Positions 1 through 38,844 of a stretch of 41,248 nt of DNA are shown here, one piece after another. Position 1 is the first letter of the stretch. Each line of letters starts with the position of its first letter. Both the position numbers and the translations under genes were made by a program. The notes below the pieces were generated by a model, which saw only the letters and a list, made by a program, of their open reading frames with translations, had not been told where the DNA came from and ran no database searches. Where the stretch lies: contig CAMHDJ010000026.1 in NCBI GenBank assembly GCA_946183915.1, positions 1 to 41,248 of the forward strand, read 5' to 3'. Source of the stretch: an uncultured Bacteroidales bacterium. Its GTDB lineage: Bacteria > Bacteroidota > Bacteroidia > Bacteroidales > P3.

Positions 1-223
1 CATCAGGGAGTCATCAGGGAGCCACCTAGGAACCATGGGCATTTCGGAGGGGTCGACTCCCCCATATCCTCCGGATTGATCATCCCCCCCTCCCCGCCCC
101 CACCCCGGGGAGGGGGCGGCTGGCGCAGCGCAGAACTGTCTCCTTCCCCACCCCAGGGAGGGGCAAGGGGTGGGGGGCGGTGCCCGACGGGACACAAAAT
201 TCTAACACCGAGGGATAAAAAAA
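1..223. repeat. Intergenic repeat block: 3' end of the 219-bp element and GC-rich hairpins
   Basis: No gene is supported here. Positions 1-22 hold two 11-bp units of the CATCAGGGAGT type, followed by the CCACCTAGGAACCATGGGC tail and a GGAGGGGTCGACTCCCC-like sequence. This matches the right end of the element at 4670-4887, so the window begins inside a third copy. About 85-175 is made of C-rich and G-rich blocks that can fold into hairpins (for example around 99-119 and 150-176). The block lies downstream of queF and its terminator. Confidence 0.75.
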
Positions 224-243
224 AACGCCTCGGGCGAGGCGTT
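224..243 (-). terminator. Intrinsic terminator of the que operon
   Basis: Read on the minus strand, AACGCCTC and GAGGCGTT form an 8-bp stem around a 4-base loop (arms 236-243 and 224-231), followed by a run of T (the A-tract at 217-223 on the plus strand). The stem reaches into the queF stop codon (243-245), so it lies directly at the gene's end. Confidence 0.85.
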
Positions 244-701
244 CAGGGGCGGTAGGTATCCATACGCTGGGCGGCCAGCTGCTCGTAGCGGGTGCCGGAA
301 CGGCCATAGTTGACGTAGGGATGGATGCTGATGCCGCCGCGCGGCACAAAGAGACCCAGCACCTCGATGTAGCGAGGCTCCATAAGCCGCACCAGGTCGT
401 CGAGGATCACGTTGACGCAGTCCTCGTGGAAGTTGCCCTCGTTGCGAAACGAGAAGAGATAGAGCTTCAGGCTCTTGCTCTCCACCATGCGACGGTCGGG
501 GATGTACATGATGCGGATCTCGGCGAAATCAGGCTGCGCCGTGATGGGGCAGAGGGTGGTGAACTCGGGGCAGTTGAACTGCACCCAGTAGTCGCGCTCG
601 GGGTGTTGGTTCTCGAAGGCTTCCAGCACCTCGGGGGCGTAACGCTCGGGGATGTTGCTCTTGTGGCCCAGGGCCTGCAGATGGTCTTGTTCGCGGTTCA
701 T
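243..701 (-). CDS. queF: NADPH-dependent 7-cyano-7-deazaguanine (preQ0) reductase QueF
   Basis: Reduces the nitrile of preQ0 to the aminomethyl group of preQ1 with NADPH, the last step before insertion into tRNA for queuosine. It is a cytosolic T-fold enzyme. The 152-residue length fits the short, single-domain (B. subtilis-like) QueF class. The catalytic stretch has Cys51, which forms the thioimide, in [10 protein letters not shown] with Asp58 seven residues later, the family's spacing. The ESKSLKLYL motif and the HEDCVN segment that follow are also family hallmarks. It is the last gene of queC-queD-queE-queF but is set 123 bp from queE, and that gap can form a large hairpin, so it may be expressed somewhat separately. 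The start at 701 is the first in-frame Met and gives a normal N-terminus. Confidence 0.96.
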
Positions 702-719
702 AGTGCGTTTTTTTTAACG

Positions 720-784
720 ACAACAGAGACCACACCGACAACTTCTTTGCGGCGCAACATGCGCCGCTTGGTTGTCTCTGTTGT
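720..784. other. Nested inverted repeat between queE and queF
   Basis: Outer arms ACAACAGAGAC (720-730) and GTCTCTGTTGT (774-784) enclose an inner perfect hairpin GCGGCGC (749-755) / GCGCCGC (761-767) with a 5-base loop. The right side continues into 9-bp near-repeats of the GTTGTCTCT type (about 771-800). There is no T-run after the stem on the minus strand, so it is not a classic terminator. It lies in the queF leader. Confidence 0.6.
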
Positions 785-824
785 TTCTGTTGTCTCCATT
801 GTCGTACATGTTTGGGTTTTATCG

Positions 825-1406
825 TTATCTTATGCTCAGTATCTTGTGCATCTGTAGCGACAGGCGCCACTCGGGATGCTGGAGGACGTAGTCCACCGTC
901 TGGGCCACAATGCGGGCGTTGCGGGCGGGGTCGCCGGTGTCGACGGGTTGCAGACAGCGGTGACGCACTGCGATGTGGCTGTAAGGGTCGGGGGTGTGGA
1001 GGCCGTCGAAGAGGAGCTTCAGCTCGTCGGCCCGCGTCAGGACAGGAGCGGCCTGCGGCCCGAGCCAGGGATCCTTGGGCGAGAGGGTCACCCAGTCGAC
1101 ATTGTCGGGCAACGGCCGGGTGCCGTTGGTTTCGACAGCCACGCGGCGCCCGGCGCGGTGCAGGGCGTCGACCAGCGAGGCGGTGAGCTGCAGGGCCGGC
1201 TCGCCGCCGGTGACCACCACCAGACGCGCCGGCCACGCTTCGACGGCGGCGACGATCTCCGCCTCGCTCATCTCGCGGCCCGCCTCGTGCTGCGTGTCGC
1301 AGAAGGGGCAGCGCAGGTTGCAGCCACTCAGGCGCACAAAGACGGCGGCCTCGCCGCTGTGCACGCCCTCGCCCTGCAACGAGCAGAATATCTCGTTGAC
1401 CCTCAT
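825..1406 (-). CDS. queE: 7-carboxy-7-deazaguanine synthase QueE (radical SAM)
   Basis: Radical SAM enzyme that contracts 6-carboxy-tetrahydropterin to 7-carboxy-7-deazaguanine, the second pathway-specific step to preQ0. The 193-residue protein starts MRVNEIFCSLQGEG, the family's typical N-terminus. The iron-sulfur cluster motif is C29-x3-C33-x2-C36 in CNLRCPFCDT, and the TGGEPAL glycine-rich SAM site follows. The chosen ATG at 1406 gives a 4-bp ATGA overlap with the end of queD, indicating translational coupling. The reading frame stays open upstream, but that part is only a shadow of queD. The size is close to that of compact QueE enzymes. Confidence 0.95.
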   Translation of the reverse strand: MRVNEIFCSLQGEGVHSGEAAVFVRLSGCNLRCPFCDTQHEAGREMSEAEIVAAVEAWPARLVVVTGGEPALQLTASLVDALHRAGRRVAVETNGTRPLPDNVDWVTLSPKDPWLGPQAAPVLTRADELKLLFDGLHTPDPYSHIAVRHRCLQPVDTGDPARNARIVAQTVDYVLQHPEWRLSLQMHKILSIR

Positions 1407-1741
1407 GGCTCGTCGACCTCGTAGGTGGCCACGTTGCCGGCGGTCTCCTGCACGTCGACGCGGTAGCAGCCCGGCACCTGCTGCTGGCACCACCGGGCCA
1501 TGTTCTCGGCCGTGGGGTTGCAGCCGATGACGTCGTTGACCACCTGGTGGTCCAGCCGGTCGGCGATGTGCCGCTTGATGTCGGCAAAATCCACCACCAT
1601 GCCGTTGCGATCCAGTTCCCTGGCCCTGCAGTAGATGGTGATCAGCCAGTTGTGGCCGTGCAGCTGGGTGCACTTGCTGGGGTAGTCCAGCTCCAGCCTG
1701 TGGGCACCGGCCACTTCAAAGGTCTTTCTTACGTAGTACAT
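1403..1741 (-). CDS. queD: 6-carboxy-5,6,7,8-tetrahydropterin synthase QueD
   Basis: Converts 7,8-dihydroneopterin triphosphate to 6-carboxy-tetrahydropterin, the first dedicated step of 7-deazaguanine synthesis. The 112-residue protein belongs to the 6-pyruvoyl-tetrahydropterin synthase fold. Zinc ligands are His14, His28 and His30 (AHRLEL, then LHGHNW) and the catalytic Cys is C24 in SKCTQLHGH. A DFADIK segment with its following helix (about 52-65) and LDHQVVND are also typical. Its 5' end overlaps queC by 13 bp and its 3' end overlaps queE by 4 bp, so the three are one transcript. No folE, which makes the substrate, is present in the window. Confidence 0.95.
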   Translation of the reverse strand: MYYVRKTFEVAGAHRLELDYPSKCTQLHGHNWLITIYCRARELDRNGMVVDFADIKRHIADRLDHQVVNDVIGCNPTAENMARWCQQQVPGCYRVDVQETAGNVATYEVDEP

Positions 1742-2406
1742 ATCGCTTGGTTTTCGTAGGGTGTCGGGTCGGGTACACCGGCGGCCGCAAAGGCCTCCTG
1801 GCGCTCGCGGCAGGTGCCGCAGCGGCCGCAGTGGCGCTCGCCGCCGCGGTAGCAGGAGTAGGTCTGGCCGTAGTCGATGCCCATGCGGGCGCCGCGCCGC
1901 ACCAGATCGGCCTTGCTGAGGGCGGTGTAGGGCGCCGCCAGGCGCACCCCCTCGTAGGTGCCGGCCTGCATGGCGGCATCCATGGCCTCCACGAAGGCCG
2001 GACGGCAGTCGGGGTAGATGGCGTGGTCGCCCCCGTGGTTGGCGATGAGCACGCGCCGCAGGCCCCGGCTCTCGGCCAGGCCACAGGCCACGCTGAGCAT
2101 GATGCCGTTGCGGAAGGGCACCACGGTACTCTTCATGTTCGCCTCGTCGTAATCGCCCTCGGGGATGGCGTCGGCGCCGGCGGTGAGCGACGAGCGGAAG
2201 TACTGGCCCATGAAGGCCAGCGGGATGACCAGGTGCTCGATGCCGAGCCGCTGGCAGTGGTGGCGCGCACAGGCCGTCTCGCGGGCGGCATGGTTACTGC
2301 CATAGTCGAAGGTGACGGCCAGGGCGATACGCTCGCGCTCCTCATAGAGCAGCGTGGTGGAATCGAGGCCACCCGAATAGATGATCACAGAATCTTTCTC
2401 TGTCAT
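1729..2406 (-). CDS. queC: 7-cyano-7-deazaguanine synthase QueC
   Basis: ATP-dependent ligase that turns 7-carboxy-7-deazaguanine and ammonia into preQ0. The 225-residue protein has the PP-loop SGGLDSTT at residues 11-18 and the C-terminal zinc site C185-x7-C193-x2-C196-x2-C199, both diagnostic. The start at 2406 puts the PP-loop at the usual distance from the N-terminus. An in-frame Met at 2436 would add ten residues lacking family similarity. The gene follows the SIMPL-domain gene by about 50 bp and overlaps queD, so the pathway order queC-queD-queE-queF is kept in one operon. Confidence 0.95.
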   Translation of the reverse strand: MTEKDSVIIYSGGLDSTTLLYEERERIALAVTFDYGSNHAARETACARHHCQRLGIEHLVIPLAFMGQYFRSSLTAGADAIPEGDYDEANMKSTVVPFRNGIMLSVACGLAESRGLRRVLIANHGGDHAIYPDCRPAFVEAMDAAMQAGTYEGVRLAAPYTALSKADLVRRGARMGIDYGQTYSCYRGGERHCGRCGTCRERQEAFAAAGVPDPTPYENQAICTT

Positions 2407-2454
2407 GGTTCTTGTTTTGTTGAAGGGGGTTGGCAAGCACCCCTGAAGGTTCCA

Positions 2455-3162
2455 CTATTTCAGATAGTACTCCACGGTGGTGACAACGCGCACCTTCTTC
2501 ACCTGCGGGGTGTTCTCGTCGAGGTCCTCCACTTCGAAGTAGCCCTGCGAGGCGGTGCGCATCTTGCCGATCTTGCTGTGGCTGTTCTTGGCAAACTCGT
2601 CGGCCGCCGTGCGGGCGTTCTCCAGGCTTTCGGCGATCATGGCGGGCTTGATGTCGTTCAGGCCGTTGTACTCGTAGCTGGCGTAGGTGTTGCTGATGAT
2701 GTTCTGCTTCAGCAGCTCGCCGTCGAGCTTGCTCTGGATGCTGCCCACCTGTTCCATCTTCGACGTGAAGACACTGATGGTCTGGTTGGCCGAGTAGCGG
2801 AAGCGGATGTTGTTGCCGCCGTAGTAGCTGTCGTAGCGGTCGTTGACGTGGGCCGAGGTGTATTTGATCTCGTCGTCGGTGAAACCGGCCTCCTTCAGGA
2901 GGGCGATGATGACGCGGTCGTTGCGCTCCATCGTGGCCCGCAGGGCGGCGAGGTCGTTGTCCTGCTCGCTGTAGTTGATGCGGAGCACCACGCGGTCGGC
3001 GGGCACCTCTTTCTCGCAGAGGCCGCGCACCTTGACGGTGTCGTCGTAGGATTTCAGCGTCTTCACGGTGCAGACCATGAAGATGCCCAGCACCAGGGCT
3101 GCCAGCACGATGGAGCTGCCCTGGATCATGTTCTTCTTGAACGGTACGTTTCTTCCTGTCAT
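2455..3162 (-). CDS. SIMPL domain-containing protein (DUF541)
   Basis: A 235-residue membrane-anchored protein. Residues about 14-33 form one hydrophobic helix after a short basic N-terminus. The rest fits the SIMPL/DUF541 family: a VKVRGLCEKEVPADRV strand near the start, then alternating strands and helices ending in VRVVTTVEYYLK. The family includes periplasmic proteins such as E. coli YggE linked to oxidative stress and signalling, but its biochemical role is unsettled. Here it is probably periplasmic and tethered to the inner membrane. I chose Met at 3162 because the upstream frame to 3318 only shadows the neighbouring gene. It is transcribed in line with queC, but a functional link to queuosine is not evident. 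Confidence 0.85.
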   Translation of the reverse strand: MTGRNVPFKKNMIQGSSIVLAALVLGIFMVCTVKTLKSYDDTVKVRGLCEKEVPADRVVLRINYSEQDNDLAALRATMERNDRVIIALLKEAGFTDDEIKYTSAHVNDRYDSYYGGNNIRFRYSANQTISVFTSKMEQVGSIQSKLDGELLKQNIISNTYASYEYNGLNDIKPAMIAESLENARTAADEFAKNSHSKIGKMRTASQGYFEVEDLDENTPQVKKVRVVTTVEYYLK

Positions 3163-3202
3163 GATATTTGAGTTTTTCTGTTTCGGGAGTATTGTGGTGT
3201 AG

Positions 3203-4348
3203 TTATTGTTCGTCGTTGTGCCAGCTGACGCGCTCGCGTCGGCTCTTGAAGGTGATGCCCAGGTGGACACCGAAGGTGAGACCCTGGTCGCCAGGGGCGA
3301 AGGAGGTGTAGGAGACATAGAGGTTGCCCATCAGCGAGGGGGTGAAGCGGCGGGCCTTGCCGCGGGCGCCGTCCTTGATGGTGTGCCAGTGGTGGAAATG
3401 CCAGAAGCCCATGACGCCCAGCGTATAGCTCGTGCCGGCAAACCAGTCGATGTCAGTGACGCCGAGGGCCACGTAGGGGGTGACGCTGTAGGCGTCGCGG
3501 TCGAGGAGGGTGTAGCCGTAGCCGAGCAGCTGCAGGTCGAGGCGCAGCAGGGGAATCTGCCTCATCTGGCCGTCGTAATCCATCACCGAGTCGTGCGAGA
3601 GCACCTCGGCGTTGAACATGCGGAAGTAGAGCCCGTGGCGGTTCCAGCCGAAGCCGTAGAGGTAGCCCGAGGAGCCGATGGAGGGGGAGCACACCTCGTT
3701 GATGTAGCCCGTCGAGAGGTCGACGCCGAACTCCATGCCGAGCAACCACCAGTAGCGCTGCGGCTCGAAGAGGGGCCGGCCGCCGGGATTGTCGTTGAGC
3801 CACTGGCGGTTGGCAAGGCGTATGCGCTCGAGGGTGGCGCTGTCGCGACCGTAGTCGGTGGCCAGCTGCAGGGCCCTCACCTCGCGATCCAGCTGTTCGC
3901 GCTCGGCCCGGAGCAGGAGGTCGAACTGCGAGCGCCGCTTGGCCACAAGGCCTTGGTGCTGCAGGTGGCGGCGATGCACCTCGACGAGGTCGAAGATGGC
4001 CTGGTTGTAGCTCAGCTCCGCGTCGTTGCGGTGCCCGTCGGCGAACCACGAGGCGGTGGGGTACATCAGGGCCGAGGCACGGCCGTAGACGTAGGTGTGC
4101 ATGCCCTCGTCGTGGCCCGAGTAGTCGCAGCCGAGGCCGTACTCGAGGTGGCTCGACTCGCGGCCCGCCGTGGTCGGCATGGAGGCGAACTCCTCGACAC
4201 GGAGCAGGCCGCGCTTCCACGTGCGGCCCCGACCGGGTCCTTGCGCCGCCACACTGCCGCTGGCCAGCACCCACAACAGCAGCACGGCCGCCGCCGGACG
4301 CACCGACGACCGCCACAACAGCCTACCGTTCAACCTATTGCGACTCAT
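3203..4348 (-). CDS. Secreted outer-membrane-type protein of unknown function
   Basis: A 381-residue exported protein that I do not recognise as a named family. Residues about 1-27 form a signal peptide (basic start, hydrophobic Ala/Leu core, cleavage near SVAAQG). The central part (about 115-160) is charged and helical, rich in Arg, Glu and Leu. The last 180 residues alternate aromatic and polar residues with Gly-rich turns, like a small outer-membrane barrel or barrel-associated protein. The start is 4348 (MSRNR); a Met at 4357 is also in frame but would lie nearly at the transcription start predicted from the -7 box at 4369-4377. About 40 bp separate it from the SIMPL gene, so the two may share a transcript leading into the que genes. 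Confidence 0.75.
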   Translation of the reverse strand: MSRNRLNGRLLWRSSVRPAAAVLLLWVLASGSVAAQGPGRGRTWKRGLLRVEEFASMPTTAGRESSHLEYGLGCDYSGHDEGMHTYVYGRASALMYPTASWFADGHRNDAELSYNQAIFDLVEVHRRHLQHQGLVAKRRSQFDLLLRAEREQLDREVRALQLATDYGRDSATLERIRLANRQWLNDNPGGRPLFEPQRYWWLLGMEFGVDLSTGYINEVCSPSIGSSGYLYGFGWNRHGLYFRMFNAEVLSHDSVMDYDGQMRQIPLLRLDLQLLGYGYTLLDRDAYSVTPYVALGVTDIDWFAGTSYTLGVMGFWHFHHWHTIKDGARGKARRFTPSLMGNLYVSYTSFAPGDQGLTFGVHLGITFKSRRERVSWHNDEQ

Positions 4349-4368
4349 ATCTTTCATATCTTTCAACG

Positions 4369-4400
4369 GCAAAGATACAGAAAAAAAACAAATGGCACAA
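4369..4400 (-). promoter_or_regulatory. Bacteroidota-type promoter for the 4348 gene
   Basis: On the minus strand, TATCTTTGC (4369-4377) matches the -7 consensus TAnnTTTG. A CTTG at 4398-4401, 20 bp upstream, is a three-of-four match to the -33 TTTG. The start codon follows with a leader of only about 15 nt. Confidence 0.6.
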
Positions 4401-4481
4401 GGCGGCGCAGAAAAAAGACACTTTTTGTCCCGCCGCGGGATCGTCGAAACCAAGAACGTCGCCCGACACGCCAACGATTTT

Positions 4482-4663
4482 AACGGCGAATGACTCGAAG
4501 AACTCGAAGCTACGCAGGCTTTTACAACGGCAAATTTTGCGAATTACGCGAATGCTACGCAAACTGATTTCATCGAATTACTCGAATGGTCTGCGCAAGC
4601 CTTTCGAGTAATTAGCTGAAAATTGACCTGCGTAGCTTCGAGTAATTCGAGTAATTCGCCGTT
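4482..4663. repeat. MITE-like element with 37-bp inverted arms
   Basis: The left arm (4482-4518) begins AACGGCGAAT, carries two ACTCGAA units and ends GCTACGCAGG. The right arm (4627-4663) is its near-perfect reverse complement. The inner part also contains ACTCGAA/TTCGAGT pieces. One arm of the same 37-bp length recurs alone at 23611-23647. No ORF lies inside and no target-site duplication is obvious. Confidence 0.7.
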
Positions 4664-4693
4664 TTATCAAAATTAAGTAAATTTAGGTTAAAA

Positions 4694-4717
4694 AATTAGA
4701 TCGTGCACGATCTAATT
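4694..4717. repeat. Palindrome, copy 1 (24-bp perfect)
   Basis: Core TAGATCGTGCACGATCTA flanked symmetrically by AAT/ATT. The same core occurs at 23307-23324 and 38718-38735, and with one change at 39011-39028. It is A/T-flanked, so it could be a bidirectional terminator or a protein-binding operator. Confidence 0.8.
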
Positions 4718-4828
4718 TGCACCTTTAAAACATTCAGAACGAGACGTCTAGTTCTTCGGAAGTGTGCAAACCATGCTGGAAAACTCGCAAAACGCTGACA
4801 GGGCAAGGATTTTGCCCTGGTTTTAAGA

Positions 4829-4872
4829 GAGTCATCAGGGAGTCATCACGGAGTCATCAGGGAGCCACCTAG
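4829..4872. repeat. 11-bp tandem array (GAGTCATCAGG type)
   Basis: Three units, GAGTCATCAGG (4829-4839), GAGTCATCACG (4840-4850) and GAGTCATCAGG (4851-4861), followed by a degenerate fourth, GAGCCACCTAG (4862-4872). There are no spacers. Confidence 0.9.
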
Positions 4873-4973
4873 GAACCATGGGCATTTCAGGGGGGTCGAG
4901 ACCCCCAAAAAAGGGCGGTGGAAAATTTCGTATTCTGTTACGATTTTTTAACATATCCATCCGAAAAAGGTTG

Positions 4974-4982
4974 TATATTTGC
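4974..4982 (+). promoter_or_regulatory. -7 box upstream of the 5061 operon
   Basis: TATATTTGC fits the Bacteroidota -7 consensus TAnnTTTG. A T-rich stretch lies upstream at 4943-4949 but no clear TTTG at -33. It is about 78 bp before the start codon at 5061, with an A/T-rich leader. Confidence 0.6.
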
Positions 4983-5060
4983 ATCCAACAAAAGTGTATA
5001 CCGAAAAACATCAACACGTTGATATAAATAAAATTAAACAAATAAAACAGACGATACGAT

Positions 5061-5465
5061 ATGAACAAAAAAATCATCTGGCTGCTGGCCCTCTGCCTGT
5101 TGGGCACCGCCGTACAAGCACAGAGCGCGAAGCGCGAACGGAAGAAGAACCTGGTGGTCAAGGAGTGGAACACCAAGGCGGGCTCGACGACCCCCTATCT
5201 GGACAATGTGGTGACCTACGACGAGTTGGGCCGCAAGGTGGAGGAGATCGAGTATGCCTCCTACGGGCAGAAACACCGCGTCACCTACGAGTACAACGGC
5301 ACCGACACCAAGTGTGTGCGCCAGGTGGAATACGACGACAAGAACCACGCCACCCGCGTCAAGAAGTTCGAATACAACGACGACGGCACGCGCAAGGCAC
5401 AGTACAACTACAAGCCCAACGGCAAGCTGGAGAGCACCAAGACGTTCGAGTACTCGTACAAGTAA
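5061..5465 (+). CDS. Small secreted protein with YD-like repeats
   Basis: A 134-residue exported protein. Residues 1-21 form a signal peptide (MNKKI start, Leu/Ala core, cleavage after VQA). The mature part has short repeats of the YD/RHS kind, with Tyr-Asp or Tyr-Asn followed by a turn and a charged strand: VVTYDELGRKVEEIEY, VTYEYNGTDTK, VEYDDKNHATRVKKFEYNDDG, YNYKPNGKLESTKTFEY. In the YD/RHS family such repeats form extended beta structures, usually in much larger proteins; this one is only long enough for a small beta sheet. No partner or function is known to me. It is the first gene of the plus-strand cluster, 121 bp before the polymerase start chosen here. Confidence 0.75.
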   Translation: MNKKIIWLLALCLLGTAVQAQSAKRERKKNLVVKEWNTKAGSTTPYLDNVVTYDELGRKVEEIEYASYGQKHRVTYEYNGTDTKCVRQVEYDDKNHATRVKKFEYNDDGTRKAQYNYKPNGKLESTKTFEYSYK

Positions 5466-5547
5466 TGCATCCAGTAGACAAGTAGTCAAGTAGTCAAGGC
5501 AAATGTCAAACAATCAGCTCATAGCTTCCACGGATGGTGCCCCTGTG

Positions 5548-5575
5548 CTACCCACTGCCCACTACCCGCTACCCA
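5548..5575 (+). repeat. 7-bp tandem array (CTACCCA type)
   Basis: Four units: CTACCCA, CTGCCCA, CTACCCG, CTACCCA, preceded by GTG. The reverse complement of 23352-23384 has the same arrangement (GTG then four 7-bp units). Just upstream, 5472-5500 has 8-bp near-repeats of the GTAGTCAA type. Both suggest that this stretch is intergenic, although it is open in the frame of the next gene. Confidence 0.65.
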
Positions 5576-5586
5576 CTCTCGACCGG

Positions 5587-6324
5587 ATGGCGCCCATCGG
5601 GCTGGAGGACATGAAGGCCGTGCGGCTGATGAACCGTGTGGACCAGAAGTACATGGCCCCGGCCGACCTGCTGGAGGAGCTCCTGGCTCGCGTGGCCGAC
5701 GGCTACTACGTGCAGCACATCGAGGGCAACCCCCTGGCGCCCTACCGCACGCTCTACTTCGACACCGACGACCTGGCCATGTACACCATGCACCACAACA
5801 AGAAGCTCAACCGGCAGAAGCTGCGCGTGCGTACCTACCGATCGACAGACACCACCTTCTTCGAGATCAAGAACAAGGACAACAAGAAGAAGACCCGCAA
5901 GGTGAGGATCCCGGTGGACGTGCAGCTGTTCGACCGCGTGCTGGAGGTGCCGGAGGTGTCGCAGTTTGTCGACCGGAACACCCCCTACCCCATCGCCTCG
6001 CTGCACCCCTGCCTGGAGAACCGCTTCGAGCGCATCACCCTGGTGGACCGCGGCATGAGCGAGCGCATCACCATCGACCGCGGCATCACCTTCCACAACC
6101 GCGCCACGGGGCGCGACGCCGACATCTCGCGCCTGCTGGTGATCGAGGTGAAGCACGAGGTGGGGGCCCCGATGAGCGACATCGAGCGGACGCTGCACGA
6201 GCTGCACGTCCTGCCCCGACGCATGAGCAAGTACTGCATCGGCACCGCCCTGACCGACCCGACGGCCAAATACAACCGGTTTAAACCCAAATTGTTATAC
6301 ATAGAAAAATTACACAGAATATGA
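5587..6324 (+). CDS. VTC domain polyphosphate polymerase
   Basis: A 245-residue cytosolic protein of the VTC/triphosphate-tunnel family, whose yeast member Vtc4 builds polyphosphate from ATP inside a tunnel of basic and acidic residues. The expected pattern is visible: LMNRVDQKY (Lys21), RTLYFDTDDL, LRVRTY (Arg80, Arg82), FFEIKNKDNKKK (Glu93, Lys95), ENRFER (Arg146, Arg149), ERITIDR (Arg160), VIEVKHE (Glu187, Lys189) and MSKYCIG (Lys215). The frame is open back to an ATG at 5503, but those 28 codons cross a 7-bp dispersed repeat and show no family similarity, so I start at 5587. It overlaps the next gene by 4 bp (ATGA). A bacterial VTC gene beside DUF4956 is a known association. Confidence 0.88.
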   Translation: MAPIGLEDMKAVRLMNRVDQKYMAPADLLEELLARVADGYYVQHIEGNPLAPYRTLYFDTDDLAMYTMHHNKKLNRQKLRVRTYRSTDTTFFEIKNKDNKKKTRKVRIPVDVQLFDRVLEVPEVSQFVDRNTPYPIASLHPCLENRFERITLVDRGMSERITIDRGITFHNRATGRDADISRLLVIEVKHEVGAPMSDIERTLHELHVLPRRMSKYCIGTALTDPTAKYNRFKPKLLYIEKLHRI

Positions 6325-7040: not shown

Positions 7041-7049
7041 CTACTACCG

Positions 7050-8732: not shown

Positions 8733-8759
8733 TGTCAACACGTAACACACAGTAACTCT

Positions 8760-9593: not shown

Positions 9594-9646
9594 CCCCTCC
9601 CCCGGCGGACCCCCTTCCCGTCGGCGGGCGAAAATAGGAGAGGCCC

Positions 9647-9766
9647 CCCGCAGGGGTGCAAGAACCTAGGCGGGGGCAACGCCCCCGTTGCCGACGGCCG
9701 TTTGGCCCTTTACTCCCCGCAGGCGAATGAGAATCAGCATCTTGTTCCCCTGCGGGGCCATTTTTA
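9647..9766. repeat. Hairpin repeat family (CCTAGGCGGGGGCAACGCC)
   Basis: Includes CCCGCAGGGGTGCAAG, then CGGGGGC-AAC-GCCCCCG (9671-9687), and ends in a CCCCTGCGGGG palindrome near 9748-9758. The reverse complement of 23510-23588 and the forward strand of 23410-23480 contain the same modules. Such small GC-rich hairpin repeats are common between genes in Bacteroidales; no mobility function is visible. Confidence 0.7.
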
Positions 9767-9884
9767 TACCCATCCCCGGGCAACCCAGCGCCGGAACACG
9801 CCCCCAATACCCCATACCACTGAAAATCAACACCATACATATTAATACACATAACCACCTATAAATCAAGACTGTGGAGGTATC

Positions 9885-9957
9885 AAGTCCGCGGCATGTC
9901 CGCAGCAAGTCCGCGGATAGTCCGCCCCAAGTCCGACCGCCGGCGGAGGAACCCCGG
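9885..9957 (-). repeat. 11-bp tandem array (AAGTCCGCGGC type) with conserved flank
   Basis: Units AAGTCCGCGGC (9885-9895), ATGTCCGCAGC, AAGTCCGCGGA, TAGTCCGCCCC and AAGTCCGACCG (ending 9939). The adjoining 27 bp (9931-9957) match the reverse complement of 38771-38797 at 24 of 27 positions, so both belong to one dispersed family. Confidence 0.85.
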
Positions 9958-10004
9958 AGGAGACCCGGAGGTGGGGCGACGGAGGGGCGGCGCGGACCGG
10001 TGGA

Positions 10005-14560: not shown

Positions 14561-14604
14561 TGCATCCCCTCTGCATCATCTCTGCATCCCCTCTGCATCA
14601 TCTC
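14561..14604. repeat. 11-bp tandem array (TGCATCMYCTC type)
   Basis: Four units alternate: TGCATCCCCTC (14561-14571), TGCATCATCTC, TGCATCCCCTC, TGCATCATCTC (ending 14604). The strict alternation means the array can also be read as two 22-bp repeats. Confidence 0.9.
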
Positions 14605-14611
14605 TGCTCGT

Positions 14612-14666
14612 ATGCCTAGTTGATGCCTAGTTGATGCCTAGATGATGCCTGGATGATGCCTGGATG
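14612..14666. repeat. 11-bp tandem array (ATGCCTAGTTG type)
   Basis: Five units: ATGCCTAGTTG (twice), ATGCCTAGATG, then ATGCCTGGATG (twice), directly beside the previous array and ending next to the subtilase stop codon at 14673. The reverse complement of the array at 33099-33164 has the same unit. Confidence 0.92.
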
Positions 14667-23148: not shown

Positions 23149-23192
23149 CTAGGTGGCTCCCTGATGACTCCCTGATGACTCCCTGATGACTC
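23149..23192. repeat. 11-bp tandem array (CCTGATGACTC type)
   Basis: One degenerate unit CTAGGTGGCTC (23149-23159) followed by three identical CCTGATGACTC units (23160-23192). It is the complement of the array at 4829-4872, but here all three full units are identical. Confidence 0.9.
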
Positions 23193-23306
23193 TCTTAAAA
23201 CCAGGGCAAAACCCTTGCCCTGTCAGCGTTTTGCGAGTTTTCCAGCATGGTTGACACACTTCCGGAAGGCTAGATGGCTCGTTTAGAATGGTTTAAATGT
23301 GCAAAA

Positions 23307-23324
23307 TAGATCGTGCACGATCTA
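23307..23324. repeat. Palindrome, copy 2
   Basis: TAGATCGTGCACGATCTA, flanked by AAAA on the left and ATTTTTT on the right, inside element copy 2. Confidence 0.8.
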
Positions 23325-23351
23325 ATTTTTTAACCTAAATTTACTTAATTT

Positions 23352-23384
23352 AGTGGGTAGTGGACAATGGGTAGTGGGTAGCAC
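23352..23384. repeat. 7-bp tandem array (AGTGGGT type)
   Basis: AGTGGGT, AGTGGAC, AATGGGT, AGTGGGT, AGCAC. The reverse complement has the same four-unit layout as 5545-5575. Confidence 0.7.
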
Positions 23385-23610: not shown

Positions 23611-23647
23611 AACGGCGAATTACTCGAATTACTCGAAGCTACGCAGG
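23611..23647 (+). repeat. Solo 37-bp arm of the MITE-like element
   Basis: Same length and near-identical to 4482-4518: starts AACGGCGAAT, carries TACTCGAAT and ACTCGAAG units and ends GCTACGCAGG. No inverse arm is near, although a degenerate GGCGAATTACTC piece follows at about 23657. Confidence 0.7.
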
Positions 23648-23857
23648 TTGATTTGGGGCGAATTACTCTTAGCTGCGCATGTCGGTAGGGTGACATATCT
23701 CCGCCGCCCCTACGGAGCTCCAATTGCATTTGCACCGTTACCGTGGGCTGGCGCCCACGGCTACAGTCCGCCGCCCCTGCGGGGCTTCCCGGCGCCGGAA
23801 GCTCTTGGCCTGTAACTGCCGTTCGGCACCCGATGAAGCCGTCTCGGAAACTTTCGT

Positions 23858-30652: not shown

Positions 30653-30656
30653 GGCG

Positions 30657-32371: not shown

Positions 32372-32392
32372 TGTCTTCTGGTTTAATGCGGT

Positions 32393-32920: not shown

Positions 32921-32997
32921 ATCAATTCAGTTTTTAATGTTTATTATTCAGTTCTTTAGACAACCCTCAGGGGTACTTTGCCCCGAATTGTCAGGCT

Positions 32998-33030
32998 GCA
33001 AAATTACTAAAAATAAGTACACACGGCAAA
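32998..33030 (-). promoter_or_regulatory. Bacteroidota promoter of the DUF1573 operon
   Basis: On the minus strand: TTTG (33027-33030), 20-bp spacer, TAATTTTGC (32998-33006). Both boxes fit the consensus. The leader is about 70 nt. Confidence 0.82.
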
Positions 33031-33098
33031 AAAAAACTTGCAAAAAGAGTTAATTTCTGTTTTTTTTCATCGTTTTCGGACCGTCGCGAGCACCTATC

Positions 33099-33164
33099 CT
33101 CCAGGCATCATCCAGGCATCAACTAGGCATCATCTAGGCATCAACTAGGCATGTTGTAGGCATA
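33099..33164. repeat. 11-bp tandem array (AACTAGGCATC type)
   Basis: Six units: CTCCAGGCATC, ATCCAGGCATC, AACTAGGCATC, ATCTAGGCATC, AACTAGGCATG, TTGTAGGCATA. It is the reverse complement family of 14612-14666 and sits 50 bp past the end of the adhesin gene. Confidence 0.92.
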
Positions 33165-33186
33165 ACTGCCTGCCGCGAGGCAGGTG

Positions 33187-33210
33187 GATGCCCCGAGGGT
33201 GCGGGGCATC
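33187..33210. terminator. Hairpin downstream of the adhesin gene
   Basis: GATGCCCC (33187-33194) and GGGGCATC (33203-33210) form an 8-bp stem, and a second small hairpin (CTGCCT/AGGCAG near 33167-33183) follows. No T-run is present, so terminator activity is uncertain. It begins 4 bp from the stop codon. Confidence 0.45.
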
Positions 33211-33213
33211 GGC

Positions 33214-36200
33214 CTACCTTTTCAGCACGCGGGCCGTGCGGCGGCCGCCTTCGGCAGTGGCACACAGGAGGTACACGCCCACCGGCAGCTGCTCCAGGTC
33301 GAGGGTCAGGGTGGGCCCGTCGGCCGTCCAACGGCCACACGTGCGGCCGCAGGCATCGTAGAGCTCCACCGCCTCGGCTACCTGCAGGCCGCCGAGGACC
33401 AGGTAGCGGCTCGTCGGGTTGGGCTGCAGCGTGAGGGCTGTCGGCCGGACAGCCTCGATGCCGACGGTGGGCATCGTGAATTGCTGCCGCATGCTCCACA
33501 CCGAACGCAGGTGCTCGTCGCAGAGGGCACGCACGTAGAGGTCGTAGGTCTCGCCCGGCTGCAGGCCGCCGATCGTGTGGCTCACCGTGGCCCCCGAGTC
33601 GAGCACCGGCCCGCTCACCAGCACCGTCTGGCCGAAGCCTTCGGTGAATCCCGCCGTGCCGTAGACGATCTCCCAGGCGCTTTGGGCGTCGGTGAGGCGC
33701 CAGCTGACCACCGCACTGTCGCCCGCTGCGGCCACCGTCACGTCGGCCACCTGGCGGCAAGCCGTGGTGGTGAACCACAGGGTGTCGCTCCACGGACCGG
33801 TCAACGTGTCGTTGCAGAGCGGCCGCACCAGGAAGGCATAGCGGGTGCCCGGGGCCAGAGTGGTGAAGGAGAGGATCGTGCTGTCGGTGGTGAAGGTCTG
33901 GTTGGTGCCCTCGCCGCGCAGGTACACCTCCCAGCGGCTTTCGTCGCCCTGCGGCGTCCAGCCGACGGTGGCCTGGGTGTAGCCGATGGAATCGGCCCAG
34001 AGTTGCTCGATCGCGTCGCAGCTGGGCGGCGCAATGTAGGTGCCCACCACCAGTTCGTCCATCCGCAAGGTCATGGCGCGGTTGCTGCCCGCGGTGCGGT
34101 GGAAGCGGAAGAGCAGGCGCGAGCCCGGCGCCAAGGGAGGTATGTCGGCCTGCACCTGTTGCCAGGCCGAGCTGTAGCTGCCGTAGGACACCGTGTCGTC
34201 GTAGAGCAGCACGAGGCTGTCGGCCAACGAGGAGAATATCTGCATGCGGGTGTCCATCGGCGTGTGCGTGTAGTGGCTGTCGATATAGCCCTGCGAGGCA
34301 ATCACGTAGAACGACACGCTGAGCGAATCGGGCCCACCGGTCAACTCGGCGGTGGCGAACTCGATGCGGTTCAGGCTGTCGGGAATGTAGGCGTAGAGTA
34401 CTCGGCTGCCGAGCATCGGTAACGAGGCCACCCTCACGTCGCCCTCCAGCACCTGCCAGCAGCGGGGCACCTCGGCGAGTGCCTGCTGATCGAAGTCCTG
34501 GCGGTAGGGCAGCGGCAGCGGGGCGCAGGCTGTGACCAGCGTAGTGCTGACGCCGAAGGTGATGGAGCTGTCGTAGCACACCGCCGCCACGTTGACCGTA
34601 TAGTCGGTGGCCGGCACGAGGGCGCTGAGGTCGACCTGATTGACGGTCTGCGTGCTATCGAGGTCGACAATGAGGGTCGTGGTGCCCTGGGTTGTGGTGA
34701 GTAGCAGACGGTAGCGGCCCGCATGGCCGGCATCGCTGATGCTGAGGGTGGCCGTGGTGGCCCCAACGGTGTCCACCCACACCGAGTCAGGTCGGCTACA
34801 GGGGAGCGTCTGACTGAGCGTCACATCGTCGAGGTACACCAGCGCCGAGCCCCACGAGGTGTCCATACAGTCGGTGCGGAAGGCCACGTGGTGCCCCAAG
34901 CCACTGTAGGGACCTAACTCAATTTGATATTCGGTCCATGTGTTGACTGCCGGTATCATGGCAATCGGCGTGAAGGTGCTGCTGTCCTGCGGGTCGGACA
35001 GGATGCCGACTGTCAACATGGCATTGTTATTCCAGCGCGAATAGAGCCAGAAAGTGAGGTCGACACCGGCCAGGGTGTCCATCGGCGGCATCAGTAAGTA
35101 GGCCTTGGGGGTGCTGCTGTAAACACTCATCAGCAGACTGAATCCCGAAGTGCCATGATGCGTGGTGTCGATGTTTACAAGATACGTTGTGGCGGGCAGC
35201 ACACTCCAGCAATGGCTGAGGGTCGAGGTGGTGAACGGTTCGGTGTAGGGCAACTCGTCTCGCAGCAGGGTGTCGCAATCGGTGGTGAACTCGGCGCTGA
35301 CGATGTGCGAGAGGGCGCTGCCGCAGCGCGTCGCCGCATGCACCGTGTAGTAGCGGCCCGCCACAAGCCCGGTGATGGTGGCCGTGAAGGCATCCACATC
35401 CATCGAGTCGGTGTCGTAGCCGTAGTTCCACGACCAGTAGAGGCGGTAGTGCCCCATGGCATTGCTGTCGGCGATGGTCACGGTGGCAGTGTGTTGTGTG
35501 ACGGTGTCCACCGTCACGGCTGTCGGCCGCTGGCATCCCGTGGCGGCGAAGAGGCCCAGGTTGTCGATAAACACCCGTTGGCTCGAGGTGCTCACATGCA
35601 TCCGCAGCGCCAGCCGACCGCTGTCGGTCGGGGCAAATGCATGCTCATAGTAGCTCCATTCCGACGTCACCGGCACCGTGTCTAACGGCTCGAAGGTGCT
35701 AGCATCGCCTCCGTCGGTCATCAGACCCAGTTCCAGCACGATGTTCGAGGGGGTGCTGTAGAAAGCCCCCACCTCGAATCCGATGGCTGCCCCGCCGAGG
35801 GGGATGCCCGTTTCGGGCAATACCGCCACCGCGTCGTAGGGTTGTGGGTCGACGCTGTAGTTGGTAGCCTGCAGGCAAAGCAGACGGCTGCCGGAGGTGG
35901 AAGCGATAAAGCTGTGGCTGGCAGCCGATACATTCGAGCCCTGGATGCCATCGATGTGGCGCAGCCAGCAGCGGTCCAGCTCGCCGTTGACCCATGACTC
36001 AAAGTCCTCGCGGTAGGGCAAGGCGGCAATGGGTTCGCAGGCGCTGGTGAAGACGGCGTTGCGGCTGGCGGTCCAGCCGTCGTCGCACAGCCGCCTGACG
36101 CCTACCGTGTACGCGGTGCCGGGCGTCAGACCTGTGAGGTGCAACAGGGTGTCGTTGACGGTGTAAGTGTTGCCGCCGCAACTCACACGATACATGCCCA

Positions 36201-38589
36201 CACCGTTGTTCTCCTGCCAATGCACGAGGACCGAGCTGGAGGTGATGTGGGTGAACCACACGGCGGCCGGCCGGTCGCAGGTCGGCAGCGCCTCGATGTG
36301 TACGTTGTCCACATGGCCCAGGTCGCGCCAGTAGCCGGGCACGTACTCGTGGCTGCCGGTGCTGTGCTGCATCAGCACCAAGCGCCCCTCGGCCACCGGC
36401 ACGGCGCCGGTCTCGACGGTGTAGCTGTGCCACAGGCTGTCGCCGGGATAAATGGTCGTGATGGGGATGAAATGGTCGATGTCGTCGTCGCCCGGAATGA
36501 CGCCCACCATGAGCGACATCAGGCCCGGGAAGCGTTCCACGCGGTAGTCGAACGTCAGCCGCAGCCGGTTGACCACGGTGTCGACGAAGGGCAGCAACAG
36601 TATGCCGCGCTCGTAGTGGTAGGTGCTGGTGTACTGCGACGAAAGTTTGACTACGTGACCGCCGGTGGCGGCCATTACTTCGGGCACGGCGGGCGTGTAG
36701 CTGCCCGTGCTGGAGGTGGTGGTCATCGAGGTGGCGCCCCAGCAGTCGGGCAGCGCGAGCGAAGCCTCGAAGTCCTCCGTCAGCGGCAGCGGCAGGGCGC
36801 AACGGGTGCGGAAGGTGGCCGTGGTGAGTTCGCTGGCCGCGGTGTCGGAGCAGAGGGCCCGCACGCCGACCACATAGTCGGTGCCGGCGGCCAGGCCCGC
36901 CAGCAGGGCGCTGTCGGCGGCGGTGGTCAGGCTGTCGGCCAGCCACTCCTGTCCGGCGGGGTACCACACCACGCGGTAGCCGCCTTCGGCAGGCACATAG
37001 GCCGTCCAGCCCACCTGCGCCGTGTGCTGGCCCACCTGGCTGGTCGTCAACGATTCGACTGGCAGGCAACCGTCGAAGACCTCGAGCGTGAGGTCGTCGA
37101 GGAAGAACCAATTGGAGGCCGTCCACTTGACGGCCACCGTGTTGCCCGGGCCGCTGTAGGCGGCCATCGGCACGACGTACTCCTGCCACGAGTTCTGGTT
37201 GACGGTGAAGGTCTGCAGCACCTGCAGCGAACCGATATCGAACGGGTCGTCCATCACGCCCACCTGCACCGTGGCCTGGGGGCTGCTGGTGCCGCCGAAG
37301 GGGCCGTGGCCGCTGAAGCGCAGCACCGTGGTGCGCACGCTGTCGACCGGCGGCAGGCGGAACCAGCCGTTGTTGCTGCCCCGGAGGGCCATGTTCGGGC
37401 GCCCCTCGAAGATCTGCATGTCCTTCACGTAGACCATGTTGCCGCTGCAGCCGCCCCAGAGCGTGGTGTAGCCCTCGGCGAGGTCCTCAAAGTCCTCGGT
37501 GAGCGGCAACTCGTCGTGCGAGAGCGGGGTGCAGGGGGTGGTGAACTGCACGCCGTGCCACTCGCTGCTGTCGGCCCCGCAGTCGGAGCGCATGTAGAGC
37601 CAGTGCTGGTGGTGGGGCGTGAGGCCGCTGAGGTGCATTGTGTCGCCGCCGTAGAGCTGCAGGTGGTGGCCCACGGTGCCGGGCGTGAAGTCCGCGGTAT
37701 CCCATTGTATGCGCACGTAGGATCCATCCACCTCGTTGGGCGTCCAGCTGAGCAGCGCCGTGTCGTGGGCAATGGCGCTGACGGCGATGGCCGTGGGGCG
37801 CGGACAGGGCGGCTGCGGGCGGTGCCAGGTGACCACCGTGCCGCTGTCGGGACAGCCGGCCAGGTTGTTGGCCGCAATCATGACCCAACTGTTGCCCTGC
37901 CGGTAGCCCGGCGAGCAGGCACTGCAGGCAATCACCGAGTCCCACGTGCCGCGCAGCGAGTTCTGGTCCATGTAGGCCCCCATCATCGTGGCCCCGTCGG
38001 TGAGGATGAAGTTGAAGAGCGTATCGCTCGGCACGCCGCTCTGCATGTGGCCGTAGACGGCGCTGATGTCGCCGCTGGCGTGCAGCCGCAGCTGATAGTT
38101 GAAGTTGTCCAAGTCGGTCTCAGCCGACGTGACGGGATAGCTGGGGTAGCGGTGCAGGCCGCGCCACTCGATGACCAGCATCGGGTCGCCGTCGTCGCCG
38201 GTCGTCAGCTGCCACCAGCAGCCCGACCCTGCCCCCACCAGCTGGCCGTCCTTCAGCGGGAAGGGGCTGATGATGCTGGAGGAGGGTTGGCTCCAGTAGT
38301 TGAGCGCAGCGTGGCCACCGCTCGAGCCGCGCATCACCACGAAGCCGTCGGCCCGCACGGTGATGGTGGTGCCCTGCGGATAGTCCGACTGGCCGAACAT
38401 GAAATCGAATGGCAGCGCGAGCGTCTGCGTGCCATAATCGCCTGTGACCGAGGCCAACAGGGTGCCCGTCTGGGTGATGCTCTGCCACTCGCCCGGGGCG
38501 GACGAGGCGGTGTAGGTGATCAGCGTCTGCGCCGTGGCCACGGGGGCGGCCAGCAGCAACGCCAGCAAGAGGGTCGGGATGTGTTTCAT
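33214..38589 (-). CDS. Giant T9SS-secreted modular adhesin (FN3 and jelly-roll-like modules)
   Basis: A 1791-residue exported protein. Signal peptide 1-20 (PVATAQ). An N-terminal globular region (about 21-260) contains SGGHAALNYWSQPSSSIISPF. Modules then alternate. Seven fibronectin type III domains begin at Cys-containing seams such as CPRPTAIAVS, CLPVESLTT, CDRPAAVWF, CQRPTAVTVD, CSRPDSVWVD, CDAIEQLW and CRQVADVTV. Five jelly-roll or MAM-like domains begin LPLTEDFE, LPLTEDFE, LPYREDFE, LPYTEPFT and LPYRQDFD and contain paired TW or SW and YLDDVTL-type strands. The last 75 residues are a T9SS sorting domain (LTLQPNPTSRYLVLGG to RRTARVLKR). It is likely a surface adhesin or glycan-binding protein. 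Cys at most module seams suggests disulfides. The start at 38589 is the Met heading the signal peptide. Confidence 0.9.
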   Translation of the reverse strand: MKHIPTLLLALLLAAPVATAQTLITYTASSAPGEWQSITQTGTLLASVTGDYGTQTLALPFDFMFGQSDYPQGTTITVRADGFVVMRGSSGGHAALNYWSQPSSSIISPFPLKDGQLVGAGSGCWWQLTTGDDGDPMLVIEWRGLHRYPSYPVTSAETDLDNFNYQLRLHASGDISAVYGHMQSGVPSDTLFNFILTDGATMMGAYMDQNSLRGTWDSVIACSACSPGYRQGNSWVMIAANNLAGCPDSGTVVTWHRPQPPCPRPTAIAVSAIAHDTALLSWTPNEVDGSYVRIQWDTADFTPGTVGHHLQLYGGDTMHLSGLTPHHQHWLYMRSDCGADSSEWHGVQFTTPCTPLSHDELPLTEDFEDLAEGYTTLWGGCSGNMVYVKDMQIFEGRPNMALRGSNNGWFRLPPVDSVRTTVLRFSGHGPFGGTSSPQATVQVGVMDDPFDIGSLQVLQTFTVNQNSWQEYVVPMAAYSGPGNTVAVKWTASNWFFLDDLTLEVFDGCLPVESLTTSQVGQHTAQVGWTAYVPAEGGYRVVWYPAGQEWLADSLTTAADSALLAGLAAGTDYVVGVRALCSDTAASELTTATFRTRCALPLPLTEDFEASLALPDCWGATSMTTTSSTGSYTPAVPEVMAATGGHVVKLSSQYTSTYHYERGILLLPFVDTVVNRLRLTFDYRVERFPGLMSLMVGVIPGDDDIDHFIPITTIYPGDSLWHSYTVETGAVPVAEGRLVLMQHSTGSHEYVPGYWRDLGHVDNVHIEALPTCDRPAAVWFTHITSSSVLVHWQENNGVGMYRVSCGGNTYTVNDTLLHLTGLTPGTAYTVGVRRLCDDGWTASRNAVFTSACEPIAALPYREDFESWVNGELDRCWLRHIDGIQGSNVSAASHSFIASTSGSRLLCLQATNYSVDPQPYDAVAVLPETGIPLGGAAIGFEVGAFYSTPSNIVLELGLMTDGGDASTFEPLDTVPVTSEWSYYEHAFAPTDSGRLALRMHVSTSSQRVFIDNLGLFAATGCQRPTAVTVDTVTQHTATVTIADSNAMGHYRLYWSWNYGYDTDSMDVDAFTATITGLVAGRYYTVHAATRCGSALSHIVSAEFTTDCDTLLRDELPYTEPFTTSTLSHCWSVLPATTYLVNIDTTHHGTSGFSLLMSVYSSTPKAYLLMPPMDTLAGVDLTFWLYSRWNNNAMLTVGILSDPQDSSTFTPIAMIPAVNTWTEYQIELGPYSGLGHHVAFRTDCMDTSWGSALVYLDDVTLSQTLPCSRPDSVWVDTVGATTATLSISDAGHAGRYRLLLTTTQGTTTLIVDLDSTQTVNQVDLSALVPATDYTVNVAAVCYDSSITFGVSTTLVTACAPLPLPYRQDFDQQALAEVPRCWQVLEGDVRVASLPMLGSRVLYAYIPDSLNRIEFATAELTGGPDSLSVSFYVIASQGYIDSHYTHTPMDTRMQIFSSLADSLVLLYDDTVSYGSYSSAWQQVQADIPPLAPGSRLLFRFHRTAGSNRAMTLRMDELVVGTYIAPPSCDAIEQLWADSIGYTQATVGWTPQGDESRWEVYLRGEGTNQTFTTDSTILSFTTLAPGTRYAFLVRPLCNDTLTGPWSDTLWFTTTACRQVADVTVAAAGDSAVVSWRLTDAQSAWEIVYGTAGFTEGFGQTVLVSGPVLDSGATVSHTIGGLQPGETYDLYVRALCDEHLRSVWSMRQQFTMPTVGIEAVRPTALTLQPNPTSRYLVLGGLQVAEAVELYDACGRTCGRWTADGPTLTLDLEQLPVGVYLLCATAEGGRRTARVLKR

Positions 38590-38717
38590 CGTATGTCGGT
38601 TTTTAAAGGGTTGCGATCTGTCACCATAGATGCCTGTCGGCACCGCTTTGTTGCCATAAAGACGGATAACACCCCCCGAATGGGTCAGCGTTAACAAAAT
38701 TTAACAACCTCTAAAAA

Positions 38718-38735
38718 TAGATCGTGCACGATCTA
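38718..38735. repeat. Palindrome, copy 3
   Basis: TAGATCGTGCACGATCTA preceded by AAAAA; on the minus strand it is followed by TTTTTAG, so it could terminate transcription running toward the adhesin gene. It lies about 130 bp upstream of the adhesin start. Confidence 0.75.
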
Positions 38736-38770
38736 ATTGCTCCCAACGCCCCATCATCGACGCACCTGAA

Positions 38771-38844
38771 CCGGGGTTTCTCCGCCCACGGTCGGACCAT
38801 CCTCGGACTTACCTCGGACTTACCTCGGACCTACCCCGGACCTG
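38771..38844 (+). repeat. 11-bp tandem array (CCTCGGACTTA type) with conserved flank
   Basis: The flank 38771-38797 matches 9931-9957 (reverse strand) at 24 of 27 positions. Units: GGTCGGACCAT (38790), CCTCGGACTTA (38801), CCTCGGACTTA (38812), CCTCGGACCTA (38823), CCCCGGACCTG (38834-38844). Confidence 0.88.

Follow-up and report, generated by a model that had tools for sequence, protein, structure and literature searches.

The window analyzed here, a stretch of 41,248 nucleotides, is an entire contig of the 2.22-Mb genome (67 contigs) of an uncultured Bacteroidales bacterium. PorZ and other type IX secretion proteins are encoded in it, and protein searches show that the near relatives of its proteins come from Bacteroidales metagenome-assembled genomes, mostly of rumen and gut origin, one of which is “Candidatus Colimorpha.” An earlier note, made from the sequence alone, had pointed out eight tandem arrays with a period of exactly 11 bp, located outside genes. 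Tandem Repeats Finder (TRF) and direct reading find all eight at the positions given, and none lies inside any gene called by our own simple codon-usage script, which took the place of a published gene caller. The sequences of the arrays are indeed unlike, but they form three families in the window (Table 1) and not the four or more classes originally proposed. TGCATCMYCTC and ATGCCTAGTTG belong to a single family, classes B and C, whose units CATCNNCTCTG and CATCNNCYAGG adjoin in register in other arrays and whose two blocks at 14561-14666 are inverted to each other. Likewise, AAGTCCGCGGC and CCTCGGACTTA represent a single family, class D, on opposite strands.

Table 1. Elements with 11-bp arrays in the window
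Position	Strand	Feature	Details
1..55	+	Class A element truncated by contig end (array 1-22)	About two GAGTCATCAGG units and 3' tail GAGCCACCTAGGAACCATGGGCATTTCGG; tail common to other class A copies
4698..4900	+	Class A element, whole	Palindrome AGATCGTGCACGATCT (4698-4713), conserved body with hairpin CAGGGCAAGGATTTTGCCCTG, array, tail
4829-4864	+	Array within the 4698..4900 element	Three GAGTCATCAGG units
9884..9939	+	Class D array	AAGTCCGCGGC units with variants
14561..14607	+	Class C block	Alternation of CATCCCCTCTG with CATCATCTCTG, which also gives period 22
14612..14666	-	Class B block	Five CATCNNCYAGG units; inverted relative to the C block
23149..23323	-	Class A element	Array 23157-23192, palindrome 23308-23323
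33096..33163	+	Class B array	Unit types CATCATCYAGG and CATCAACTAGG, then CATGTTGTAGGCATAACTGCCTGCC
38719..39027	-	Class D element with two bounding palindromes	Array 38790-38844; GATCGTGCACGATC (38720-38733), GATCGTGCGCGATC (39013-39026)

The class D array at 9884..9939 is preceded by CCACTGAAAATCA (9817-9829), a motif also found before other class D arrays; no palindrome flanking this array was found. The window also contains tandem repeats with other short periods, 7, 8, and 9 bp, namely, the 7-mer CTACCCA, the 8-mer AGTAGTCA, and the 9-mer TTCGAGTAA (4637-4658, 5473-5577, 23351-23381, and 23616-23637). The window has two Rfam matches, both away from the arrays: Acido-Lenti-1, above the gathering score (23741-23786), and sR53, below it (40112-40187). 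The former adjoins GCCCCTGCGGGG-type palindromes, and similar palindromes surround a Y1 transposase gene in another stretch (L220); this Rfam family may represent a REP-like repeat here. In addition to the window, three contigs of the same genome (C4, C15, and C54) start inside class A arrays, and three more (C16, C18, and C38) have a class A array within their first 300 bp. The class A repeat probably breaks the assembly at contig starts.

Dispersed repeat families and the 11-bp period

Each class in the window forms the body of repeats that are dispersed in intergenic DNA. The class A pattern, GAGTCATCAGG, has 90 forward and 89 reverse matches genome-wide, and its array terminates a conserved body, at whose start lies the palindrome AGATCGTGCACGATCT. 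To the left of this body is one of several other repeats, such as the 9-mer TTCGAGTAA, the 7-mer CTACCCA, or a GCTGCGATCCGAAAACGCAGC hairpin. In class B/C arrays (CATCNNCYAGG and CATCNNCTCTG), the unit types are ordered and there is a recurrent 3' end, CATAAATGCCTGCCGG. As in miniature inverted-repeat elements (MITEs), the copies are dispersed, short, noncoding, and intergenic; as for inverted repeats at both ends, the other MITE feature, seven class D elements have the array between two palindromes (spans of 282 to 347 bp), class A has one palindrome only, and class B has a partial inverted end. The palindrome has 48 sites in 841 kb, none of them coding, with 32 located at most 350 bp from class A and 14 from class D. 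The remaining two form a pair (L044, contig C14, 9672-9899; span, 228 bp) that has no 11-bp array between them.

The independence of the classes is lower than the earlier note had claimed, as some of them join in one array and there is a weak common consensus. In C04 (32265-32379) and C09 (26169-26263), CTAGGGTAA units pass into class A-like units. The 46 unit consensuses have a shared information of 5.98 (30 starts) or 5.67 to 5.95 (12 starts), compared to a column-shuffled maximum of 5.63 (60 nulls, 12 starts), a result that is suggestive only, with related units kept in and dinucleotide preference uncontrolled. Among 21 array rows that remained unclassified, 17 match at least one other locus in BLAST searches that included the flanks, and 4 rows, from 3 loci, match none in the sample.

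The period spectrum has an intergenic peak at 11 bp. In a first sample of 441,248 bp from this genome (the window and 20 stretches of 20 kb), the 73,206 bp of intergenic DNA contains 67 period-11 arrays, compared to a mean of 0.0 in five dinucleotide shuffles, followed by 16 arrays of period 7, and the 368,042 bp of coding DNA contains one. With 20 added stretches, the sample grows to 841,248 bp (shuffles were run on the first sample), and its 124,319 bp of intergenic DNA encompasses 120 arrays of period 11, 12 of period 22, 24 of period 7, and 19 of period 9, with a single period-11 array in 716,929 bp of coding DNA; the added half alone accounts for 55 arrays at period 11 and 5 at period 22. 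Scarcity inside genes is by itself weak evidence, because 11 is not a multiple of 3.

The same period comes first in the congeners, with 62 arrays in 187,110 bp of intergenic DNA, a density biased upward because 20 of the 80 stretches sampled, at greater depth, six genomes already known to have arrays (the first 40 and the last 20 stretches were sampled blind). Period 7 is next, with 45 arrays. These counts come from 72 stretches, after the removal of 7 that were masked and 1 with less than 50% coding DNA; 32 of the 72 have a period-11 array, whereas 1,032,702 bp of coding DNA has none and three shuffles combined give one. Elsewhere in the order, 34,590 bp of intergenic DNA sampled from other families contains no period-11 arrays (18 of 20 stretches; 2 were masked). 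Named near relatives have 13 such arrays in 62,068 bp (8 of 26 loci), and distant named Bacteroidota have 3 in 98,864 bp (54 loci), with periods 7, 8, and 14 coming first. Separately, the distant Bacteroidetes genome UBA4416 (L163, 11422-11676) contains period-22 arrays with a unit resembling ATGTACCCTTCGGTATATAGAC. The peak over shuffled controls that the earlier note looked for is thus present in the genome sample and in the genus, and, in the genome sample, neither of the two outcomes that it named as contrary, a spectrum with no peak at 11 and an equal frequency of arrays in genes, is observed.

Unit sequences turn over between species while the 11-bp step is kept. Among 61 genomes (this one, 36 congeners, and 24 other members of the order), the patterns for class A, class B(/C), and the palindrome are found only in this genome; a reversed class B control pattern has five matches in G023, the sole such case. 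Arrays of TGTTCTTCGAT have 704 matches in G029, 31 in G001, 16 in G012, 3 in G004, none in this genome, and one, with two mismatches, outside the genus. CAWCTCCTACT arrays are present in 10 of the 37 genus members, this genome among them, and in none of the 24 others, with one control match in G005. Many CAWCTCCTACT elements of the congeners (L261-L280 and G029 stretches) have a second, inverted 11-mer arm around a short apex, e.g., CCTACCATGGTAGG, and a CTGWAAATCA-like motif sometimes precedes these two-armed elements. A scan for the CTGAAAATCA motif near arrays of other species proved too noisy for use. Carriage of the arrays by phages was considered and set aside: viral contigs, in a search whose scope may omit records close to this genome, have no exact match to two array patterns.

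Within the arrays, neighboring GCATC sites of class B are 11 bp apart in 213 cases, 12 bp apart in 1, and 10 bp apart in none, and all 86 spacings between class A GAGYCAYC motifs are 11 bp. The step of class D is looser, with GTCCG spacings of 11 bp in 47 cases, 10 bp in 7, and 12 bp in 1. There are 339 substitutions between the 213 GCATC-anchored B units, and the class A body, which excludes the array, shows 324 substitutions and a single gap. Because this nonarray body is equally gap-free, the paucity of indels supports selection for phase without proving it. Indels are found in 10 of 164 TRF arrays at period 11 and in 18 of 114 at periods 7 to 10 and 12 (Fisher p = 0.014). Just beyond the detected arrays, lag 11 comes first among 31 lags in each of the four classes but not in control intergenic DNA, so that degenerate units appear to extend past the visible arrays. 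The predicted curvature of 58 arrays of at least 44 bp, calculated from wedge parameters, is 17.5 degrees over 44 bp, compared to 15.6 in shuffled and 20.5 in random intergenic DNA. Bare curved DNA of the phased A-tract kind can therefore be rejected, and this ordinary curvature points to a bound protein and not to bent DNA.

Even spacing of the pooled arrays

Over the 800 kb measured, the arrays are evenly spaced along the chromosome, with members of unlike classes keeping apart. Merging within 300 bp yields 98 loci and 78 gaps in 20 contigs of 40 kb; these were compared to equal numbers of loci taken from intergenic regions (minimum length, 120 bp) with length weighting. The pooled loci have a mean gap of 7.5 kb and a coefficient of variation (CV) of 0.34, versus 0.75 in the null (0/2000). 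Both tails are trimmed: 1% of the gaps are shorter than 3 kb (23% in the null), and 0% are longer than 15 kb (8% in the null; 1/1000). The variance/mean ratio of the counts per contig is 0.26, versus 0.73 (5/2000), and the CV stays below the null value of 0.75 to 0.76 at detection thresholds of 12, 14, 16, 18, and 20 (0.34, 0.35, 0.43, 0.50, and 0.42; 0/500 each). Arrays of other periods are clustered instead (42 loci; CV of 1.03, versus 0.72). Neither class A alone nor class B alone is significantly underdispersed (199/1000 and 455/1000), which makes the regularity a property of the pooled classes. When each class is rotated independently per contig, ignoring genes, 18.9 pairs of unlike classes are expected at distances below 3 kb and 30.8 below 5 kb, whereas 1 (0/2000) and 9, respectively, are seen.

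Held-out DNA, contigs C1 to C10 past 40 kb, shows the same trend, with none of 27 gaps below 3 kb, versus 6.9 expected (0/5000), and a CV of 0.61, versus 0.87 (61/5000). These values, as well as those from the G029 position lists that follow, refer to the matches listed, which are near-exact and may miss diverged neighbors, and to a uniform, not an intergenic, null. Six contigs of G029 carry two interleaved families whose units are unrelated, and the matches listed there yield 56 gaps with a mean of 10.9 kb, a minimum of 4.4 kb, and a CV of 0.38, versus 0.93. Among these matches, no gap is below 4 kb (17.8 expected; 0/5000), and no cross-family pair is closer than 5 kb (11.0 expected; 0/5000). 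Direct reading of 120 kb each gives a CV of 0.43, versus 0.75, for 9 loci of G001 (52/2000) and of 0.57, versus 0.80, for 10 loci of G029 C1 (231/2000), the latter with no gap below 3.5 kb. The matches of one family in G022 leave 11 gaps, the shortest being 5.5 kb. The spacing of 5 loci read directly in G004 is not significant (251/2000), and G003, with 3 loci and one gap of 2.2 kb, shows the opposite trend and does not fit even spacing.

What could keep the arrays apart

Our tentative best explanation of these sequence patterns, favored at somewhat less than even confidence, is that the arrays, as bodies of several dispersed families, form one evenly spaced series of what are likely interchangeable docking sites for a putative chromosome-organizing protein. 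A common binding protein, or protein family, would read all classes, binding one unit per helical turn, and binding could be cooperative and head-to-tail, in underwound DNA with a turn of about 11 bp. The spacing would result from selection for approximately one array per 5 to 10 kb, the organizing role being perhaps the anchoring of loops or supercoil domains beside promoters. The arrays would spread as repeats, gain or lose whole units, and persist where a site is needed. The role of a chromatin or nucleoid protein, suggested in the earlier note, gains support from the even spacing common to all classes, but raised bending of the bare DNA is not part of it. A stronger form of the proposal, which we regard as possible and advance with more reserve, is that of a ruler: every 5 to 10 kb would carry one array whose identity is the 11-bp step and not the sequence, all classes being read by a single fast-evolving architectural protein, so that families are replaced between species and the lattice persists. 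Unlike arrays swapping on one lattice would be what a site defined chiefly by its step looks like, and would equally be what target immunity by a common transposase looks like.

Target immunity is the main rival, and we consider it less likely than docking. The arrays would then be transposase-binding ends of nonautonomous elements, and the bound complex would block further insertion within several kilobases, so that, near saturation, even spacing would arise in the absence of any chromosomal function. The dispersal of the families, the restriction of the A and B patterns to this species among 61 genomes, the matching palindromes that bound class D elements, and the soft minimum of avoidance near 3 to 4 kb all fit this scheme, and random packing with an exclusion zone should also trim both tails of the gap distribution. 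However, the mutual exclusion extends to unlike classes, which would require one protein capable of recognizing them all, and the stretches that we read contain no autonomous copy. The two Y1 transposase genes adjoin other hairpins and not the arrays; a class B array lies about 1 kb from one of these genes, in a separate intergenic region. Mobilization by RAYTs can be rejected, as the intergenic DNA around both Y1_Tnp genes contains other hairpins, with no 11-bp array. Searches for Mu-transpos_C gave no match in 14 genomes, and the control also had no match anywhere. The docking explanation is favored over target immunity on three grounds: both tails of the gap distribution are cut, other repeats form clusters, and no mobilizing enzyme could be linked to the arrays. 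Purging of close copies by recombination was also considered and rejected, as it leaves the avoidance between unlike classes unexplained.

Another alternative ties the arrays to transcription: they could be sets of operators phased with the promoters that they serve, and their spacing would be that of the regulated promoters. Of 104 cases in which an array faces a gene, 60 have a TAnnTTTG box, which we take to be the Bacteroidota -7 element, between the array and the start codon, compared to 8 of 104 on the control strand. In the sample from this genome, the unit-to-box distances are periodic at 11.0 bp (combined 2nR2 of 53.5, 12 df, p = 3e-7), with values of 15.3 for start codons, at most 21.6 for other motifs, and 37.1 for TTTG, which is part of the box. 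In held-out class B arrays, the mean phases agree (2.9 versus 3.0 and 8.6 versus 9.1), but the V-test gives p = 0.028 for the opposite orientation (n = 7) and 0.26 for the same orientation (n = 5); the held-out class A set has 2 usable distances. In G029, the promoter phase is not significant at 11.0 bp (13.4 on 8 df; 16.9 at 10.5 bp). Array-promoter phasing at 11.0 bp, strong in sample and weakly replicated, is thus suggestive. Against regulation as the reason for the lattice, the distance from array to box ranges from 17 to 333 bp, 12 of the 96 loci with both neighbors called are located between two 3' ends, and regulation does not explain avoidance between unlike classes, which makes this alternative improbable. 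No clear enrichment in divergent promoter regions is observed (11 of 25 class B loci versus 35% of intergenic base pairs).

Still less probable in our view is that the arrays are arms of long hairpins, in RNA or extruded DNA, with 11 bp corresponding to the pitch of an A-form duplex. Inverted partner arrays (p ≤ 0.05) do accompany 14 of 18 arrays of G029, 6 of 14 class D arrays, and all arrays of G012 (two), G023 (two), L106 (two), and L117 (three), and the second arm of many CAWCTCCTACT elements is of the same kind. However, such partners are mostly absent from the commonest families of this genome (2 of 39 for class A, 0 of 10 for BC, and 6 of 28 for B), and we reject the hairpin as a general function on this ground. 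In addition, there is no Rfam match at the window arrays. Seven in-register elements, an underpowered set, show no covariation of the arms, and the larger set is confounded by register; neither set serves here as evidence.

Fixed-step slippage, a genus-specific replication or repair process that would make functionless 11-bp intergenic tandem duplications and that the earlier note had offered as a possible mechanism, is very improbable and fails as the whole story, since the conserved bodies, ends, and flanks of dispersed copies, the regular intervals, and the mutual avoidance of classes are not what it predicts, and since arrays with other periods form clusters. Local growth by unit steps does contribute: adjacent class B units are identical in 44 of 168 pairs, compared to 32.8 in shuffled order (6/2000), and the number of GCATC units per array varies from 3 to 12. 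The three unclassified loci with no other BLAST locus in the sample also fit slippage.

Comparison with known repeats

Intergenic repeats of bacteria are usually viewed as scattered parasites. In this species, and in a second one whose units are unrelated, dissimilar families instead act as a single series at regular intervals, and what defines it is a step close to one helical turn. If chromosome organization is the cause, the spacing of domains could be read from the sequence; if target immunity is the cause, these genomes would offer a clear natural example of a genome shaped by immunity. In either case, what is conserved is the period, and repeat searches based purely on sequence would miss it. 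The new finding here is the even spacing of the pooled arrays. A literature search, largely beyond subscription journals, returned nothing on 11-bp intergenic tandem arrays in Bacteroidetes, on 11-bp direct repeats at promoters, or on such repeats in rumen Bacteroidales.

Several known systems share some of these properties. REP/BIME elements, associated with RAYT transposases, are mosaic intergenic repeats with hairpins, present in many copies per genome. The arrays are likewise mosaic, intergenic, numerous, and accompanied by hairpins, but they are direct repeats of a fixed step, and the hairpins that flank the two Y1 transposase genes are different ones. CarH-type operators and the ParR/parC iterons consist of 11-bp direct repeats to which the protein binds head-to-tail, one site per turn; these are found at one or a few loci with a known protein, whereas here the loci are many and the protein is putative. 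The STRR heptamers of cyanobacteria have a 7-bp unit that is typical of the clade and forms many intergenic sets. The available part of a report on Beggiatoaceae describes TAACTGA repeats, also of 7 bp but of a single sequence, mostly located just before start codons (PMC4679880). With both of these, the arrays share a clade-typical short unit length and many intergenic sets; they differ in having a step of 11 bp, many sequences, a position that is often upstream of the core promoter, and even spacing.

A nucleotide periodicity of about 11 bp has been described in bacterial genomes, including those of cyanobacteria (PMC4132750) and Escherichia coli (PMC516772), and plectonemes are pinned upstream of promoters (PMC6301789), according to the parts of these sources that were available. 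The similarities are the 11-bp length, which is commonly taken to reflect the helical pitch of DNA under negative supercoiling (PMC4132750, PMC516772), and the location upstream of promoters (PMC6301789). In these available parts, the signals are diffuse A/T runs or curvature (PMC4132750, PMC516772, PMC6301789), whereas here the arrays are discrete and predicted curvature is not raised.

In the available part of their description (PMC4596501), the BrickBuilt and PgRS/MITE464 elements of Porphyromonas gingivalis are dispersed, always intergenic, and of limited host range, with a leader, a tail, and spacer-free tandem repeats; the unit is 23 or 41 nt, one strain has 19 BrickBuilt copies, and the terminal repeats are IS5-like. 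Like BrickBuilt (PMC4596501), the arrays described here belong to a member of the Bacteroidales and consist of spacer-free tandem units inside a dispersed intergenic element. Unlike BrickBuilt, with its 23-nt unit in that source, they have a unit of 11 bp, occupy about 100 loci in 800 kb, and comprise several unlike families that are evenly spaced.
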